Shown in pieces: positions 1,511-35,448 of a stretch of DNA of 35,793 nucleotides. The notes under the pieces were generated by a model. It was not told where the DNA came from. It was given only the letters and a program-made list of their open reading frames with translations, and searched no databases. Source of the stretch: a virus; the IMG/VR virus record IMGVR_UViG_3300013233_000312, positions 1-35,793 of that record; one strand, given 5' to 3'. How positions within the stretch are numbered: the stretch's first letter is position 1; each line of letters starts with the position of its first letter. Made by a program: the position numbers and the translations under genes.

Positions 1511-1781
1511 AGTGAACTTATTATTCCAAGGCTCAGATCAAGAGGCTAAGCTGTTGCAAGTGACGTACTCGCACATATCAAGTAGCCCCGACCCAAGCCT
1601 CATCATTGCTCACCCCAAGCAGCCGGTAGATCGGCGGTTCTGGTGGTGTTCAGATCTTGAAGACCACATCGTATCCATTGGTTCAAGCCATTGGCTGCGC
1701 CATAAGAGTGTCCCTATGCCCCGCGAACCACTGGGTGCGTCAGAGTTTAACCAATGGCTCCACAGCCAGTTCGATGTATAA
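1491..1781 (+). CDS. small hypothetical protein
   Basis: A 96-aa protein of unknown function, rich in Trp, His and Ser in its second half (RRFWWCSDLEDH, SSHWLRH). Its start overlaps the end of the preceding gene, with GAGGA eight bases upstream of the ATG at 1491; a second in-frame ATG at 1500 is possible. No membrane segment or signal peptide is seen. Kept as real because it fits the operon's tight packing and has a ribosome binding site. Confidence 0.65.
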   Translation: MTQMKTKVNLLFQGSDQEAKLLQVTYSHISSSPDPSLIIAHPKQPVDRRFWWCSDLEDHIVSIGSSHWLRHKSVPMPREPLGASEFNQWLHSQFDV

Positions 1782-1791
1782 GGAGTAACTA

Positions 1792-2115
1792 ATGAGAAAC
1801 CAAACATCAACAAGAGCGCGGCGCAAGCTGATCGGCTACGATACGTTGACCGAGTGCGTTGCTAGGGTGCGTGTGGGCATCCCACTAGCCTTAGTTATTA
1901 GGCAGCTTGACCTGCCAATCAGTCGCCCCGTAGCGGCTGCCTTAGTGGGCTACTTTAAGGAGGCTAGAGGGGCTGATAGTGTAACTGTGCGGGACGCTAT
2001 AGACAAAAGCCTATTCCCTTCATGGATGAAGGCTGATTCCGGCGTGGCAGAAAGCCCTAAAGGGCTGGCCTACCACGGCACATTCCCTTATGGGGCTTGG
2101 GAGGACGCGCAGTGA
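1792..2115 (+). CDS. hypothetical basic, helical protein
   Basis: A 107-aa protein with a basic N-terminus (TRARRKLIGYDT) and a helical core (residues about 16-57) that has a faint helix-turn-helix look (IPLALVIRQLDLPISRPVAAALVGYF). It is preceded by AAGGAG and ends overlapping the GTG start of the primase-helicase gene (GTGA). A DNA-binding or primase-accessory role is plausible from position only. No family recognised. Confidence 0.65.
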   Translation: MRNQTSTRARRKLIGYDTLTECVARVRVGIPLALVIRQLDLPISRPVAAALVGYFKEARGADSVTVRDAIDKSLFPSWMKADSGVAESPKGLAYHGTFPYGAWEDAQ

Positions 2116-5132: not shown

Positions 5133-5185
5133 CCCAACAGACTGCTGCCGCTGCGGTGGCAGTCTCTAAACTAGGAGTTACGAAA

Positions 5186-6880
5186 ATGAAAAAAACACCT
5201 TACATGCGGGTTCCTCTCGCACAGATTAAGCCAGACGCTTCAAAAATACTCTGCTTTGATGTAGAGACAGACGGGTTCTATGGGGCAGTCCAGTTAGCTC
5301 AATTTTATCAGGAAGGCGACCACAGCGTACTTATGGTAGCTACGCCTGACCCGTATCAATTAGCGGGTGTCTTAGCCACCTTCATCGAAGATGGCGGCAG
5401 CATAGCCTGCCATAACGCCAGCTATGAGATAAGTACAATTCAACGGCAGACCGGCGTAACACTGGACGTTACAGGGTTCGTTGACACGTTTTATCTAGCC
5501 CGTCAATCCCTACCACGACTGGGGTCATTTAGTTTAGATAAGGTCATGACGCACGTCTTAGGCACCGACCCGTACGAAGCTCAAGGGCTGGACAAAAAGA
5601 CGCTGCAAAAAAGCCGATGGACTGGGGAGTTATCAGCAGACCAACTAACCTACGCCGCGACCGATGTTTATTACATGCCAGAAGTGTTAGCAGCCGTGTC
5701 GGATGTTAAAGACTCCTTGACCTATAAGCTGGATATGCTGTCCGTGGCCGCTGCTTTGCCCATGCAGCAGTGCGGTATGCCCTTCTTAGCCGGTGAAGCC
5801 AGAGCCTTCATTGCCGAGGCCGAGGGGAATTTAGCGCCTTTAGTTAGCTACCTGCCAGAAGGCTTAAATGTTAATAGCTATAAGCAGGTAAGGGCGCTTC
5901 TAGGCACTGACCAGTCCGACGGGCTGTTCTTAGCGTCCTTAGCAGCCGCTGGTGACACCACAGTGCAGGCTATTATCGAAGTCAAGAAGCTAAAGAAGCA
6001 GATCAGCACCACCAAAAAGTACCTAAAGGCATCGGTCGGTGGGCGAATTTACGGTGTCTTTAGCCCTTCCACACGCTCTGGCCGGTTTAGCTGCAAAGAA
6101 GACAACCTGCAACAGATCCCAAGGGCATTGAAGAAGCTCTTCGGCGTTACACCTGACTCAGGTATGGTGCTGGTGTACAGCGATTACAGCCAGTTGGAGC
6201 TGCGTATTGTTGCGGCCATTACTGGCGACTCCGCAATGGTTGAGGCGTACCGCAACAACGAAGATCTCCACACCCTCACAGACGCTATGGTTGTTAGCAG
6301 GGGTGGCGAACGTACAGGAAGGTCTCGCACAATTGCCAAAGGCTGTAACTTTAACCTCCTGTACGGTGGGGGCGCTGGGATGCTTGGTAGCATTCTTCTT
6401 AAGCAGGCTGGGTTAGTCATCCCAGAGCAAGAGCTACGGAACAACAAACGCAAGTGGCACAATTTATACCGTGGCGTGACCCGATGGCAGCAGAAAGGCA
6501 TCAAAGACCACGAGCAAGGGCTGCTAGGGTCTACGCTGCTGGGGCGGCTGTATAAAGGGGATCGGATGACCGATCAGCTCAACATTGAGAACCAAGGCTC
6601 AGGAGCAGAGGTGGCTAAGCTAGCTCTGCATTACATGCACAAAGCAGGCATAACCCACAGTTTAGGTGACTTTATCCACGATTCGTACATTGCCATCGTA
6701 CCTAAAGGAGAGGCCGAAGCGACCGCGACCATCATGGGGGAGTGCATGCAAAAAGCGTGGTTCCAAGTCATCGCTAACGCTAAGGTGACAGACTTACCTA
6801 TGCCTGTGGACGTGTTCATCGGCACTAATTGGGGTGCTATTGAAGCAGGCCAATTCGACAAACAGATTTCATTCGCTTAG
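5186..6880 (+). CDS. family A DNA polymerase with 3'-5' exonuclease
   Basis: Replicative Pol I-type polymerase of 564 aa, compact compared with T7 gp5 (704 aa). Exonuclease motifs: CFDVETDG (about residues 23-30), CHNASYE and YAATDVYY. Polymerase motifs: A at YSDYSQLELR (about 332-340), B at RTIAKGCNFNLLYGGG (about 380) and C at IHDSY (about 497). Motif C has Ser where E. coli Pol I has Glu (HDE). The residue aligned with E. coli F762 is Phe. The start at 5186 follows AGGAGTTAC with good spacing; an upstream in-frame start at 5156 has no such site. It follows the SSB gene and precedes the dNMP kinase in the replication operon. Confidence 0.93.
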   Translation: MKKTPYMRVPLAQIKPDASKILCFDVETDGFYGAVQLAQFYQEGDHSVLMVATPDPYQLAGVLATFIEDGGSIACHNASYEISTIQRQTGVTLDVTGFVDTFYLARQSLPRLGSFSLDKVMTHVLGTDPYEAQGLDKKTLQKSRWTGELSADQLTYAATDVYYMPEVLAAVSDVKDSLTYKLDMLSVAAALPMQQCGMPFLAGEARAFIAEAEGNLAPLVSYLPEGLNVNSYKQVRALLGTDQSDGLFLASLAAAGDTTVQAIIEVKKLKKQISTTKKYLKASVGGRIYGVFSPSTRSGRFSCKEDNLQQIPRALKKLFGVTPDSGMVLVYSDYSQLELRIVAAITGDSAMVEAYRNNEDLHTLTDAMVVSRGGERTGRSRTIAKGCNFNLLYGGGAGMLGSILLKQAGLVIPEQELRNNKRKWHNLYRGVTRWQQKGIKDHEQGLLGSTLLGRLYKGDRMTDQLNIENQGSGAEVAKLALHYMHKAGITHSLGDFIHDSYIAIVPKGEAEATATIMGECMQKAWFQVIANAKVTDLPMPVDVFIGTNWGAIEAGQFDKQISFA

Positions 6881-8644: not shown

Positions 8645-9938
8645 TTATCAAGTAGCTATGTACAAAGAGGCGCTGCCGATCTTGAAGAAGTACGGCCTTG
8701 TGTATCTATCAGCGCAGGAGCGCGTGGGTAAGACCCTCACCTCTATTTTAGTTGCCGAAGCCTGCAAAGACAGCGTAACTAAGGTGTTGGTGTTGACCAA
8801 ACGCAAAGCCGTGGCTGGTTGGGAGGAGACCCTAGCCGCCTACCAACACAACAAAGAGTACACAGTCACAACGTATCAGATGCTGGCTAAGCAGATCGTC
8901 AAACCGGATTTAGTTATTATTGACGAAGCTCATGCGTATCTAGCTGCGGTGCCGAAAGCGTCAAAAACTCAGCAGGCGGTGCGGAAGGCTTGCTTGGGGC
9001 TGCCGATCATCTTTATCTCAGCCACCCCCCATGCCCAAGGCCATCACCAACTGTTTCACCAGTTGCAAGTGTCCAGCTTTAGCCCTTGGGCGAAGTTCAA
9101 AACCTTCTACGCTTGGTTCCGGACGTATGGCATACCTAAAAGCATTCAGGTACACGGCAAGACGATCAATCAGTACACCACCACCAAGGCGGATTTGTGC
9201 CGCCAAGGTGTCGCCCACTTGTTTGTCACTCGCACAAGAGCGGCGCTAGACTTCCCGCATGAGCCTAACGACAAGCTGCATTTTGTCCCGCTCTCAGAAG
9301 AGACCAAAGCCCTCTACAATGCGCTGCTGAAAGATAAAATGCTTGTCGTTGACCCGATAGAACGATCTTTTGTGGCTGATAGCTCTATGAAGCTTAGGGC
9401 ATCGCTGCACATGTTGGAGGGGGGTGTCTTAAAATGGCGGTTCCCTTGTGAGACACCTACCCAGATCAACCAAGCCATTAAGCAGCTCCCCGCGACGGTG
9501 TGTAATACAGTTATGACTACAGAGACGTTAGATGGTGTTTCTATGCCTAGCGTGTATTTAATGCTTGATAGCCTAGAAAAGGTAGAGTACATTAAGCGTC
9601 ATTGGGGCGACACGAAAGATTTAGTTATCTTCTACCAATACAAAGCTGAATTATTCAAGCTGCAAGATCACTTCAAGAAGGCTCAACTGCTCCAAGGCAC
9701 ATCGTATGCCGAAGGAGTGGAGCTAAGTCACATAGACACTTGTGTGGTGTACAGTATGGACTGGTCAACAGCACGATACGTTCAGCGCCGAGCGCGGCAG
9801 GCAGGCTTCAACAGAGATAAGCCAATTGTCGTGCATTACTTACTTGCAGAGGGTGCAGTATCCGCGCAAGTTTACAACACAGTGGCGGTCAACAAGAAAA
9901 ATTTTGTTGACTCCATGTTTGAGGAGTTACCACTATGA
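8631..9938 (+). CDS. SNF2-like DEAD/H-box helicase/translocase
   Basis: A 435-aa superfamily 2 ATPase. Motif I is SAQERVGKT (residues 28-35), a variant of the SNF2 DEMGLGKT form; motif II is DEAH (98-101); motif III is SAT (130-132); motif VI is QRRARQAGF (from Q385). The order and spacing fit SNF2-type translocases that many phages encode beside a VRR-NUC nuclease. It may remodel forks or recombination intermediates. The ATG at 8631 lies 14 nt inside the previous gene with GGGAGG upstream; the longer open frame from 8499 is not used, because it reads antiphase through the preceding gene. Coupled by ATGA to the ligase gene. Confidence 0.85.
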   Translation: MKPFDYQVAMYKEALPILKKYGLVYLSAQERVGKTLTSILVAEACKDSVTKVLVLTKRKAVAGWEETLAAYQHNKEYTVTTYQMLAKQIVKPDLVIIDEAHAYLAAVPKASKTQQAVRKACLGLPIIFISATPHAQGHHQLFHQLQVSSFSPWAKFKTFYAWFRTYGIPKSIQVHGKTINQYTTTKADLCRQGVAHLFVTRTRAALDFPHEPNDKLHFVPLSEETKALYNALLKDKMLVVDPIERSFVADSSMKLRASLHMLEGGVLKWRFPCETPTQINQAIKQLPATVCNTVMTTETLDGVSMPSVYLMLDSLEKVEYIKRHWGDTKDLVIFYQYKAELFKLQDHFKKAQLLQGTSYAEGVELSHIDTCVVYSMDWSTARYVQRRARQAGFNRDKPIVVHYLLAEGAVSAQVYNTVAVNKKNFVDSMFEELPL

Positions 9939-29964: not shown

Positions 29965-29994
29965 ATTATACATCGGCAGTTGACAGTAACGCAA
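29965..29994 (-). promoter_or_regulatory. leftward late promoter (scaffold-capsid operon)
   Basis: Reading leftward, TTGCGT (29994-29989), 18-bp spacer, TATAAT (29970-29965). Expected start near 29958, 15 nt ahead of the scaffold ATG. Its -35 lies inside the spacer of the opposing rightward promoter, so one polymerase should exclude the other. A perfect -10 and the 18-bp spacer are shared with the promoter at 21853-21882. Confidence 0.75.
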
Positions 29995-30008
29995 CTAAAT
30001 AATATAAT
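29980..30008 (+). promoter_or_regulatory. rightward consensus sigma70 promoter (packaging operon)
   Basis: TTGACA (29980-29985), 17-bp spacer, TATAAT (30003-30008): a perfect match to the sigma70 consensus with ideal spacing, followed by an AT-rich discriminator. Expected start near 30015, about 19 nt before the first packaging gene. Such strength is unusual for terminase genes, which are normally expressed weakly, and suggests regulation by a bound protein. Confidence 0.9.
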
Positions 30009-30033
30009 ATATTTTTACTTGGAGTTAAACCTA

Positions 30034-32576: not shown

Positions 32577-32822
32577 TTAGGCCAGCTTGTACTGGATGCG
32601 GATGGCCTCAACGAAGTTGGTAAACATCTCCGCCTTGGTTGAGTTTGGGTGGTCAGTCGTTAAGATGGCCACCTCTTTAGCAGCTAAGGAAGGCATAGCA
32701 GCACAAGCTCTCAGCCGCCACACGCATGTATCACAAAGCACAGCTTCCTTATGGGACTCACCTTGCCGCCAATCTAAATGGCTGTTGATCCCATAACTGT
32801 GGCATAAAACACAACTTCTCAT
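32577..32822 (-). CDS. zinc-ribbon-like small protein
   Basis: An 81-aa protein with two CxxC pairs near the N-terminus (CVLC at 4-7, then CDTC about residues 30-33) forming a plausible treble-clef or zinc ribbon, and a helical C-terminus. The ATG at 32822 has GGAG six bases upstream; an in-frame start at 32834 would place that site inside the gene. Its initiation region GGAGTTACTTATGAG is complementary, 14 of 15 bases, to the predicted small RNA at 33333-33387. Function unknown; last gene of the leftward accessory operon. Confidence 0.65.
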   Translation of the reverse strand: MRSCVLCHSYGINSHLDWRQGESHKEAVLCDTCVWRLRACAAMPSLAAKEVAILTTDHPNSTKAEMFTNFVEAIRIQYKLA

Positions 32823-32838
32823 AAGTAACTCCAACTAA

Positions 32839-33315
32839 TTAAGGTTTAAGGGCTGTGTGGCAGCCGCTGCAAACAGCGGCTTCTTCAACAGCTAAGGTAG
32901 GGTGCAGGCACCAGCCGTAGCGGGGTGTCGCACGGACGAATTGGCCTGTGTCGCTGATTAAGCAGACGTCCACTGGCATGTTGTAGCGGTTGACCACGGC
33001 CACGAGCTGCTTGTAGTGCTTAGAGGCGATGCCGGACTTGGTGATTAGCACCACCCCTGCACGTTTATTGGTCTTTAGGCTGTAATGTAATGCCTGTGTG
33101 ACCGACTCAGCCCACTTGGTATCGAAATCAAACTCAATGGCTCTGTTGTCGGTCAGGCAGTCAACCCGTGTCTTATCATCTAACCTAAATTCAGTGGCAC
33201 CGTGGGCTTTAGCGCACCACTTGAATTGGTAGTGCTTCTCTTTAGGGGCTGCATGAGCCAAGGCGGTGGCTGCGGCCACAACAAGTAAGGTGAACAAAGT
33301 TAAAAATCGAAACAT
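32839..33315 (-). CDS. secreted PD-(D/E)XK-like protein with CxxCH motif
   Basis: A 158-aa protein with a clear Sec signal peptide (MFRFLTLFTLLVVAAATALAHA, cleavage near 20-23). The body has FRLDDKTRVDCLTDNRAIEFDFDTKWAESVTQALHY, with D52, E61, D63/D65 and K67 arranged like a PD-(D/E)XK nuclease core followed by a conserved QALHY. I recall relatives with this block as uncharacterised exported proteins. The C-terminus has CSGCH (149-153). It would act in the periplasm. A role against superinfecting phage DNA is possible but unproven; activity may be lost. It lies directly after the terminator at 33333-33359. Confidence 0.65.
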   Translation of the reverse strand: MFRFLTLFTLLVVAAATALAHAAPKEKHYQFKWCAKAHGATEFRLDDKTRVDCLTDNRAIEFDFDTKWAESVTQALHYSLKTNKRAGVVLITKSGIASKHYKQLVAVVNRYNMPVDVCLISDTGQFVRATPRYGWCLHPTLAVEEAAVCSGCHTALKP

Positions 33316-33332
33316 AATAAGGTCTCACAAAT

Positions 33333-33359
33333 AAAAAAGCCCCAAGGGAGACTTGAGGC
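33333..33359 (-). terminator. rho-independent terminator, leftward
   Basis: Leftward GCCTCAAG - TCTCC - CTTGGGGC (8-bp stem with one G-T pair, 33359-33339) followed by six T. It ends transcripts from the genes at 33467-34215 and from the promoter at 33394-33422. Genes at 32577-33315 must rely on read-through or an unseen promoter. Confidence 0.88.
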
Positions 33360-33387
33360 AATCACGGCACAGAGGAGTTACTTCTGA
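33333..33387 (-). ncRNA. predicted small RNA with anti-ribosome-binding-site loop
   Basis: A strong promoter and a terminator only about 55 nt apart enclose no ORF, the hallmark of a small RNA. The 5' part can fold as CAGA (33386-33383) - loop AGTAACTCC (33382-33374) - TCTG (33373-33370), then a short linker and the terminator hairpin. The loop is complementary to the GGAGTTA-type ribosome binding sites used by several genes of this phage (see findings). An alternative is a transcription attenuator for the downstream secreted protein gene. Confidence 0.55.
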
Positions 33388-33393
33388 GCCGGT

Positions 33394-33422
33394 AGTATGG
33401 CAGTATTGCCGGTTGCTGTCAA
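33394..33422 (-). promoter_or_regulatory. strong leftward sigma70 promoter
   Basis: TTGACA (33422-33417), 17-bp spacer, CATACT (33399-33394). Perfect -35, ideal spacing, -10 with two mismatches. Expected start near 33387. The only things between it and the terminator at 33333-33359 are about 30 transcribed bases, so its main product should be a short RNA. Confidence 0.75.
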
Positions 33423-33466
33423 GTTGGTGAATTTAATAATCCACGTTTTTGATGTGCTTAGCGTTC

Positions 33467-33958
33467 CTATGGGGCTGTTGTTCCTGCTCCTTTGGTTCCC
33501 GCAGCCGATTTAGCGCCAGTGCCTACGTTAGTTGCAGATTTGCCGTTACCTCCGTTATTGAGATTTGTGATAACTGCCGTAGTTTGGGCGGCTGGGGCGG
33601 ATACAGTAGCTAAAGCTGCTTGTGTGGCGTTGTTAGCGGCTGCTTTTTTAGCGGTTTTTGTGGTGCCTTGAGCCACTCCAACCACCGTGCTGCCGCCGGT
33701 GATCTTAACTTCGTGGACGGTGTGTTTTACGCCGTCAATATCGACGGTGTGGATCGTCGGTTTACCTAAGTGCTTGTTTATCGTAGTCTTATCGGCTTCG
33801 ATGTGTTCTTCATACTCAGGCTCGCCGTTTGGGAGCAGCCTTTTACGCTCTGTCGCTTCGTCGTCTACCTCTTTTTGGTGCTTAATCTCCTCCTCAGAGC
33901 GTTTTTGCTTGCTACGGCTGCGTTTGCGGCTTGTTTTGTTGTCTTTCTTAGAACCCAT
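33467..33958 (-). CDS. low-complexity basic hypothetical protein
   Basis: A 163-aa protein with a highly basic N-terminus (KKDNKTSRKRSRSKQKR), an acidic-charged stretch, a short structured part (residues about 60-118: KPTIHTVDIDGVKHTVHEVKITGGSTVVGVAQGTTKTAKKAAANNATQAAL) and an Ala/Gly/Thr-rich tail. The structured part faintly recalls a double-stranded RNA-binding domain (see findings). Start overlaps the previous stop as TAATG. Nucleic-acid binding is plausible from charge. No family can be named. Confidence 0.55.
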   Translation of the reverse strand: MGSKKDNKTSRKRSRSKQKRSEEEIKHQKEVDDEATERKRLLPNGEPEYEEHIEADKTTINKHLGKPTIHTVDIDGVKHTVHEVKITGGSTVVGVAQGTTKTAKKAAANNATQAALATVSAPAAQTTAVITNLNNGGNGKSATNVGTGAKSAAGTKGAGTTAP

Positions 33959-34215
33959 TATAGGTCTCCTTGGTGTTCATCTAGGGGTTGATTGAGGTCT
34001 CTGTACACCTTGTAGGCGAAACCTGCGGCGAATAATACCACAAGTGGGCTGAACAATGCGCTCAGACCGCCGAGAACGGCCACTACAACGACGATCTGCA
34101 AAACCCGCTGGCATAGTAGCCCTACGCCTCTTAAAAGGCCGTAGAGGGATTCTTCGTGGATGCAGAGCCAAATGACGGTGGCCAGTGTGATGTAGAAGGG
34201 TGTGTAACTGTGCAT
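33958..34215 (-). CDS. small membrane protein
   Basis: An 85-aa protein with hydrophobic segments at residues about 7-21 and a long one at about 38-68 (VLQIVVVVAVLGGLSALFSPLVVLFAAGFAYKV), ending in an acidic tail (YRDLNQPLDEHQGDL). The ATG at 34215 follows GAGGAGTTA, which is complementary to nine bases of the predicted small RNA. First gene after the AT-rich region, so its promoter should lie in that region. Function unknown; an envelope or superinfection-exclusion protein would fit. Confidence 0.6.
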   Translation of the reverse strand: MHSYTPFYITLATVIWLCIHEESLYGLLRGVGLLCQRVLQIVVVVAVLGGLSALFSPLVVLFAAGFAYKVYRDLNQPLDEHQGDL

Positions 34216-34877
34216 AACTAACTCCTCGGTGGTTGAGACCTAACAATACCTAAAGGAATGGTGTGGCGCAAGAAGTAATTTAGCTTATAGCGTAAATAAC
34301 CCAGCTAGCCAAAAGTTCCCTTACGATTGTGCAATCAGGCACGTTTTTCTGGATGGCGAAATAGCTGTATATAATAAATAATTGTAATTTGAATAAAAAA
34401 AAAGACATTGTGTTTGTTTTAAAGCGCACTTTTGGATAACTATTTATTTTAGTTCAACTTAAGCCCTTACATCGCCTATATTGATTAGTTTCTGACCAAT
34501 CCAATTACTTTAGCTCCTATTAGCCATTAGTAAATTTAATGGTGGTATTAGCAGAACTTGGGGTATTTTCAAATTTATTTTACAATGTAATCGCCTATTT
34601 TAACCTATCTCGCAAAGGCGACCTTTTAGCCCTTTAAGTCTGATCGTTAGCCTCGCATAGTTATCGAATTAGGCCGCTAACGAATAAAATAATTACTTTG
34701 GTGCCTATTTAGCAGCTTAAGAGTTGTATTACAAGTTTAAATCTCTGGGATTTGTTGTCTGTTATATGAGCCTTGCGACTAAATATGCAAAAACACCCAT
34801 TTAGGAACCCGAATAGCTTTTTACGATAAATCCGTTATATAACTAATTTTATCTAATTTCAATTATTTTGCAGGCAA
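34216..34877. other. AT-rich gene-free region
   Basis: About 660 bp with no credible ORF and a much higher A+T content than the rest. Contents: word repeats TCGCCTAT (34473, 34591) and GCCTATTTA (34703), TAGCC words, an AGTTCAACTTAAG motif (34451), an inverted repeat CGTTAGC (34645-34651) / GCTAACG (34676-34682), a small AAAGG-CGA-CCTTT hairpin near 34615, and TATAAT near 34370 on the + strand with a weak -35. Candidate for a replication origin or a control region for the genes at 33467-34215. No promoter is convincing enough to call. Confidence 0.6.
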
Positions 34878-34922: not shown

Positions 34923-35135
34923 CTAAGTGTGGGCAGCTAGGTACGACAGCACGAACCGGATCTGGCGCAGCATATTCTCTGGCGTGTCGGGCTGTTTTGG
35001 TGGCAGCTTAATGTCGAAGGATGCGGCGACCGCCGAGGCCAGCAGCGCAAGAGCTAAGTCACGGGTCTCTGTTAGGTCTTTGGTCTTGTCTGTGATCTCC
35101 GCAGCGCACATACTACAATGGTAGGTTGTCTTCAT
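34923..35135 (-). CDS. small hypothetical protein with CxxC
   Basis: A 70-aa protein starting MKTTYHCSMCAAEITDKTKDL, with one CxxC pair near the N-terminus and a helical, Ala/Leu-rich body. One pair is not enough for a zinc site in a monomer, but a dimer could share a metal. GTGAGA lies before the ATG in a leader repeated upstream of the neighbouring gene. Last gene before the terminator at 34878-34901. No recognised family. Confidence 0.55.
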   Translation of the reverse strand: MKTTYHCSMCAAEITDKTKDLTETRDLALALLASAVAASFDIKLPPKQPDTPENMLRQIRFVLSYLAAHT

Positions 35136-35140
35136 TTTGT

Positions 35141-35163
35141 TCTCACTTGTTGGTTGTTTTGGT
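35141..35163. repeat. 23-nt direct repeat, copy 1 (gene-boundary leader)
   Basis: An exact 23-nt match to 35415-35437. On the coding strand it covers the last codons (TKTTNK), stop codon and GTGAGA ribosome binding region before the 70-aa gene. A shorter piece (ACAACCAACAAG) recurs near 35668-35679 inside the HTH-repeat gene. Confidence 0.85.
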
Positions 35164-35409
35164 TGTGTACTCGTCCAGCTCTCTGATAGTCCTAGCTACG
35201 GCGCGGGCTACGAAGCCTGTAGAGGCATCAGCGGCTACGGCGAGGTCGCTATATTCAATGTTGAGGGTAGTAAATGCGACCCCAAGGTCTGAGCTAGTTA
35301 CAACAGCGAGGCGCAGAGCGTTCTGTCTATCCGGCCTTCGATGCATCTCATACTGCGTGCCTGCGTCTGCCACAGCTTTAGTGGCCAGCTTGACTACAAT
35401 ATCTCTCAT
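35143..35409 (-). CDS. small hypothetical protein
   Basis: An 88-aa protein (MRDIVVKLATKAVADAGTQYEMHRRPDRQNALRLAVV...) of mixed helix/strand character with no recognised motif. GTGAGACC lies before the ATG. Its C-terminal TKTTNK and stop are part of the 23-nt repeat. In an accessory operon of small unknown genes ending at the terminator at 34878-34901. Confidence 0.55.
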   Translation of the reverse strand: MRDIVVKLATKAVADAGTQYEMHRRPDRQNALRLAVVTSSDLGVAFTTLNIEYSDLAVAADASTGFVARAVARTIRELDEYTTKTTNK

Positions 35410-35414
35410 ATCGG

Positions 35415-35437
35415 TCTCACTTGTTGGTTGTTTTGGT
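35415..35437. repeat. 23-nt direct repeat, copy 2 (gene-boundary leader)
   Basis: An exact copy of 35141-35163. Here it is noncoding: it lies between the stop of the HTH-repeat gene and the start of the 88-aa gene and supplies the GTGAGA ribosome binding region. Confidence 0.85.
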
Positions 35438-35448
35438 GGGCTTCTGAC

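Follow-up and report, generated by a model that had tools for sequence, protein, structure and literature searches.

A putative phage small RNA predicted to pair with the translation start regions of its own genome

Most known phage small RNAs have one phage gene, or the host, as their target. The sar RNA of P22 and the c4 RNA of P1 and P7 pair at or near the translation start of a phage gene and block translation, VpdS of phage VP882 is a trans-acting RNA of about 50 nt that affects both phage and host mRNAs, and DicF of the Qin prophage, at 53 nt, prevents translation through base-pairing (PMC12197685). The Betaproteobacteria toxic small RNAs (RF02278) include ncS03, ncS05, ncS27 and ncS62 of Burkholderia cenocepacia and are related to S17 of Bordetella; they are homologous double hairpins of 57-92 nt with CU-rich unpaired stretches, and overexpression of members inhibits growth (PMC5688073; PMC11722255).

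We analysed the whole IMG/VR virus record IMGVR_UViG_3300013233_000312 (35,793 bases), referred to here as the window, in which terminase, major head protein and DNA polymerase were recognised by PHROGs. A sequence-only reading of this DNA had described TTGACA-17-CATACT with a good terminator after only about 30 transcribed bases and no open reading frame, and this arrangement was confirmed on the minus strand. The whole unit, from promoter through terminator, spans 33422-33331, with about 30 transcribed bases ahead of the terminator, and no open reading frame was found within it. It lies between a two-gene operon (34215-33467) and the gene for a putative secreted protein, which is followed by a Zn-ribbon-like gene. 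The features of the unit are listed below.

33422-33394, minus strand: sigma-70-type promoter TTGACA-17-CATACT, 10 of 12 consensus positions, with TG ahead of the -10 (TTGACA 33422-33417, 17-nt spacer, CATACT 33399-33394)
33331-33391, minus strand: predicted small RNA of about 55-60 nt, from promoter/terminator spacing and fold
33365-33391, minus strand: 5' hairpin with arms CGGC-U-CAGA and UCUG-U-GCCG around the loop AGUAACUCC, which is the antisense of GGAGUUACU
33374-33382, minus strand: loop AGTAACTCC, the proposed pairing seed
33359-33339, minus strand: stem of the intrinsic terminator, GCCUCAAG and CUUGGGGC around the loop UCUCC, plus U6, so that CUCC is shown in this loop too

Folding of the predicted RNA gives a two-hairpin structure at -23 kcal/mol, with a z of -3.8. 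By the usual distance from the -10, the likely +1 is at about 33389-33385. The true start may therefore remove part of the outer CGGC arm and make the 5' hairpin weaker; with a later start the anti-Shine-Dalgarno stretch is kept, either in a weaker hairpin or single-stranded. We consider it likely that this is a real transcription unit. The promoter spacer region (33394-33416, minus strand) carries a short inverted repeat, GGCA-ATAC-TGCC, and CGG-TATT-CCG is found within the spacer at the same place in the nearest relative introduced below; these repeats are possible operators. A 38-codon hydrophobic open frame opposite the small RNA (33397-33513, plus strand), whose ATG has GGAG 19 nt ahead of it, is probably a chance frame. 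The adjoining 163-aa protein (33467-33958, minus strand) matched a double-stranded-RNA-binding motif below threshold (Pfam dsrm, E 0.03), and a dsRNA-binding role for it was dropped because there was no confident model (pLDDT 54) and no relative of it in the nearest related genome.

That related genome, IMGVR_UViG_3300023500_000010 (G001, L001), shares 68% identity in the terminase, 83% in the major head protein and 71% in the polymerase. It was the only close relative found in searches with the terminase, capsid, polymerase and secreted protein; the more distant terminase relatives include Edwardsiella phage KF-1, Pseudoalteromonas phage PH1, Vibrio phage VPMS1 and Dickeya phage Amaethon, among others. 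Short units were counted by requiring a terminator within 130 nt of a TTGAC-type promoter, with neither AACTCC nor a CTCC terminator loop required. The window has one such unit versus 0.01 per dinucleotide-shuffled record, and the relative also has exactly one, versus 0.03 per dinucleotide shuffle. In both units the body contains AACTCC, and the terminator loop CTCC. Among the 178 terminator-like sites of the loci, a redundant set, CTCC terminator loops are confined to three distinct places: the window unit, the relative's unit and L027. A looser scan over all loci (1.04 Mb) listed seven units. No similar unit was found among about 80 more distant relatives, only two genomes carry it, and an exact search for the loop in viral contigs returned two matches, neither of them flanked by a promoter or terminator.

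The exposed stretch of the predicted RNA is complementary to start regions of the phage's own genes. We used our own script to call gene starts and tried several metrics. The predicted targets are as follows.

32818-32832, minus strand: start region GGAGTTACTTATGAG of the Zn-ribbon-like gene (32822-32577), 14/15 complementary, -8.6 kcal/mol net; the best predicted target
34213-34231, minus strand: start region of the membrane-protein gene (34215-33958), 16/19 complementary, 9 contiguous
9921-9930, plus strand: GAGGAGTTAC ahead of the DNA ligase gene (9935), 10/10
5173-5181, plus strand: AGGAGTTAC ahead of the DNA polymerase gene (start 5186), 9/9
1781-1796, plus strand: AGGAGTAACTAATGAG, start of gene 1792-2115; a weaker predicted target
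30021-30027, plus strand: GGAGTTA ahead of the RHH-like gene (30034), 7 bases; a weak predicted target

The match to the Zn-ribbon gene spans the Shine-Dalgarno sequence, the spacer and the start codon. All of the complementarities in the sequence-only reading are present (14/15 for the Zn-ribbon gene, 9 bases for the membrane protein, 9 for the polymerase and 7 for the RHH gene), and its target list is extended by the DNA ligase start (10/10) and gene 1792, which it had missed. By interaction energy, pairing of the terminator loop with GGAGA-type starts is weak. A perfect consensus promoter, TTGACA-17-TATAAT, was observed upstream of the RHH-like gene (29980-30008, plus strand), whose start word is GGAGTTA.

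The complementarity of the window RNA to its own translation-initiation regions exceeds chance, with one other metric, the exact-block metric, negative. None of 2000 shuffles of the 5' part did as well against the phage's starts. Against random genomic 34-mers the P values were 0.006 for the best target, 0.001 for the second and 0.0003 for the sum of the top five, and with genomic 34-mers centred on CTCC as background they were 0.005 (best), 0/185 (second) and 0.005 (top five). When TAACTCCT was kept, the best match gave P 0.0175 and the second 0/400. Interaction energies with accessibility, with the loop alone randomised, gave P 0.008-0.017 when loops were random; holding CUCC constant gave 0.008-0.025, and holding ACUCC constant 0.017-0.033. 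A test of this kind against all starts had been proposed in the sequence-only reading, and in this simplified form with randomised loops the signal held, at P about 0.01-0.03 even with CUCC kept. Non-structural gene starts score above structural ones in the window (P 0.02). Applied to the window RNA, the exact two-block metric over a longer leader was without signal (P 0.15-0.66), and the window evidence thus depends on the single mismatches allowed within the extended match.

These results bear on whether the unit could be an accident or a fossil, that is, an inverted copy of a start region lying between promoter-like and terminator-like sites, with a terminator that merely ends the 34215-33467 operon. 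Consistent with this, the plus strand resembles a start region in which CTG replaces ATG (GGAGTTACTTCTGAG), GGAGTTA is a common start word in this genome, and start regions match one another nearly as well. Chance is disfavoured by the rarity of the unit, by a counterpart in the relative that shares its motifs, and by the energy and genomic-background tests; we regard this origin as quite improbable. The caution that GGAGTTA is simply a common binding-site word was right as far as it goes, since the bare word AACTCC occurs 12 times against 16.5 expected and so shows no enrichment, but it does not extend to the unit and the extended complementarity, both of which are beyond chance.

The relative's RNA reads AACUCC-UUAAGAC-GUGUGUGAAU. 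The leader of the relative's gene 424, AUUCACACAC-AAAC-GGAGUU, is collinear with this RNA and complementary to it over 16 pairs, and other early leaders in this genome have CACACAC plus GGAGUU or GGAGU. Scored against its own leaders by the AUUCACACAC and GGAGUU blocks, the relative's RNA gave P 0.001-0.005 for the best match and 0/1000 for the sum; an ungapped test gave P 0.003-0.02 versus shuffles and 0.01-0.05 versus genomic 34-mers. The energies of its top targets were not significant when the AACTCC segment alone was randomised (P 0.13-0.43), and the signal in the relative comes mainly from GUGUGUGAAU against the CACACA block, a simple repeat common to several leaders. The non-structural bias was not significant in the relative (P 0.11). 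Both its -10 (TAAGCT) and its 5' hairpin are weak, and its fold does not stand out (z -1.0). The fit of this counterpart to its own leaders suggests that both phages may use a tiny RNA against their own early genes.

Crossed tests gave weaker results: the relative's RNA had no strong best match on the window, with a raised average score, and the window RNA had one good match on the relative, at the gene start at 5267. Aligned with each other, the two units score above shuffled sequences (P 0.001 global, 0.0075 local), whereas MAFFT did not bring their motifs into register, so that sequence homology of the units is alignment-dependent. From the shuffle test, common descent of the two units is likely. 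At either end of the relative (L090 about 370-1510; contig 37300-41800), several short genes share a promoter-leader unit, TATAATGACC-(AT)TCACACA-CAAAC-GGAGTTA, in a cassette-like repetition. In the window, genes 35135 and 35409 (34923-35440, minus strand) have a near-identical leader, CAACCAACAAGTGAGA, possibly a second leader cassette.

The position of the unit in the relative also bears on attenuation, in which the promoter would drive the secreted-protein gene along with the Zn-ribbon gene, and some signal would allow read-through of the terminator. In the window, the terminator ends about 24 nt upstream of the secreted-protein start on the same strand, and the promoter scan listed no other minus-strand promoter directly upstream of that gene. 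In the relative, however, the unit comes after the orthologous secreted-protein gene (54% identical) and has only the end of the convergent terminase gene behind it. The absence of a regulated gene directly downstream in this one close relative argues against an attenuator. In addition, an unsystematic look at the window RNA revealed no competing antiterminator fold, and an attenuator leaves the complementarity to distant starts unexplained. We consider attenuation decidedly unlikely. The sequence-only reading had offered both an anti-ribosome-binding-site regulator and an attenuator; the energy test and the relative's counterpart favour the former, and the place of the relative's unit, downstream of the secreted-protein gene, speaks against the latter. 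The putative secreted protein itself is conserved (window 32839-33315, minus strand; L001 7886-8416; 54% identical) and had no match in Pfam, NCBIfam or PHROGs. By eye only, its RVDCLTDNRAIEFDFDTKWAE resembles a PD-(D/E)XK nuclease core.

We favour the explanation that the unit probably encodes a free-standing, trans-acting small RNA directed against ribosome binding sites, mainly those of the phage's own, mostly non-structural, genes. From the computed unit, its rarity, its complementarity and its counterpart in the nearest relative, we infer transcription, repression and timing as follows. Host RNA polymerase would start at TTGACA-17-CATACT and stop about 55 nt later at the terminator. The RNA would expose AGUAACUCC in its first loop, or single-stranded if the start is further in, and UCUCC in the terminator loop. 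AGUAACUCC would then pair with GGAGUUA(CU), which serves as start signal for the Zn-ribbon, membrane-protein, ligase, polymerase and 1792 genes. This pairing would cover the Shine-Dalgarno sequence, and in the best case the start codon too, and block ribosome entry. A likely use would be to turn down early and replication genes as infection proceeds.

A wider proposal, which we put forward only tentatively from the two genomes, is a self-targeting regulon in which one RNA that copies the phage's own start leader in inverted orientation would repress the early and replication genes that share the start word, with RNA and leaders changing together between relatives. The corresponding RNA/leader pairs are the loop GUAACUCC with GGAGUUAC in the window, and AACUCC...GUGUGUGAAU with AUUCACACAC...GGAGUU in the relative. 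If true, an RNA matched to a shared start word would be a simple post-transcriptional off-switch for an early gene set, and this would suggest that small RNAs can arise through inverted duplication of a leader.

How the predicted RNA compares with RF02278 bears on a further explanation, that it is a real small RNA whose main targets are host mRNAs and that it acts as an anti-Shine-Dalgarno RNA, lowering host translation like the Burkholderia RNAs. The window RNA shares their anatomy of a short double hairpin with CUCC exposed, and both phage units gave full-length, sub-threshold alignments to RF02278 (15.5 and 15.7 bits versus a gathering threshold of 50 bits); no Rfam family reached its gathering threshold. 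An RF02278 search of the whole records gave no match at E up to 10, which indicates likeness rather than membership. In both phages the complementarity also extends past the Shine-Dalgarno core into phage-specific spacer and leader sequence. Host mRNAs are unlikely to be the main targets.

Compared with the known systems, the RNA predicted here to act on the phage's own starts is like RF02278 in its fold, a short double hairpin with CU-rich exposed, unpaired stretches, and differs in being phage-borne and in its extended complementarity to starts of its own genome. As in RNAs of the VpdS and sar kind, the window unit has its own promoter and intrinsic terminator without an open reading frame, and start-region complementarity beyond chance (the exact-block metric being negative). 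The sar and c4 RNAs act on one antirepressor gene in temperate phages, whereas multiple targets are predicted for the window RNA and we noticed no lysogeny genes in the window. VpdS is Hfq-bound and VP882 is temperate; the likeness of VpdS to the window RNA is one of description. DicF has host ftsZ as its target, whereas the predicted targets of the window RNA are the phage's own translation starts.
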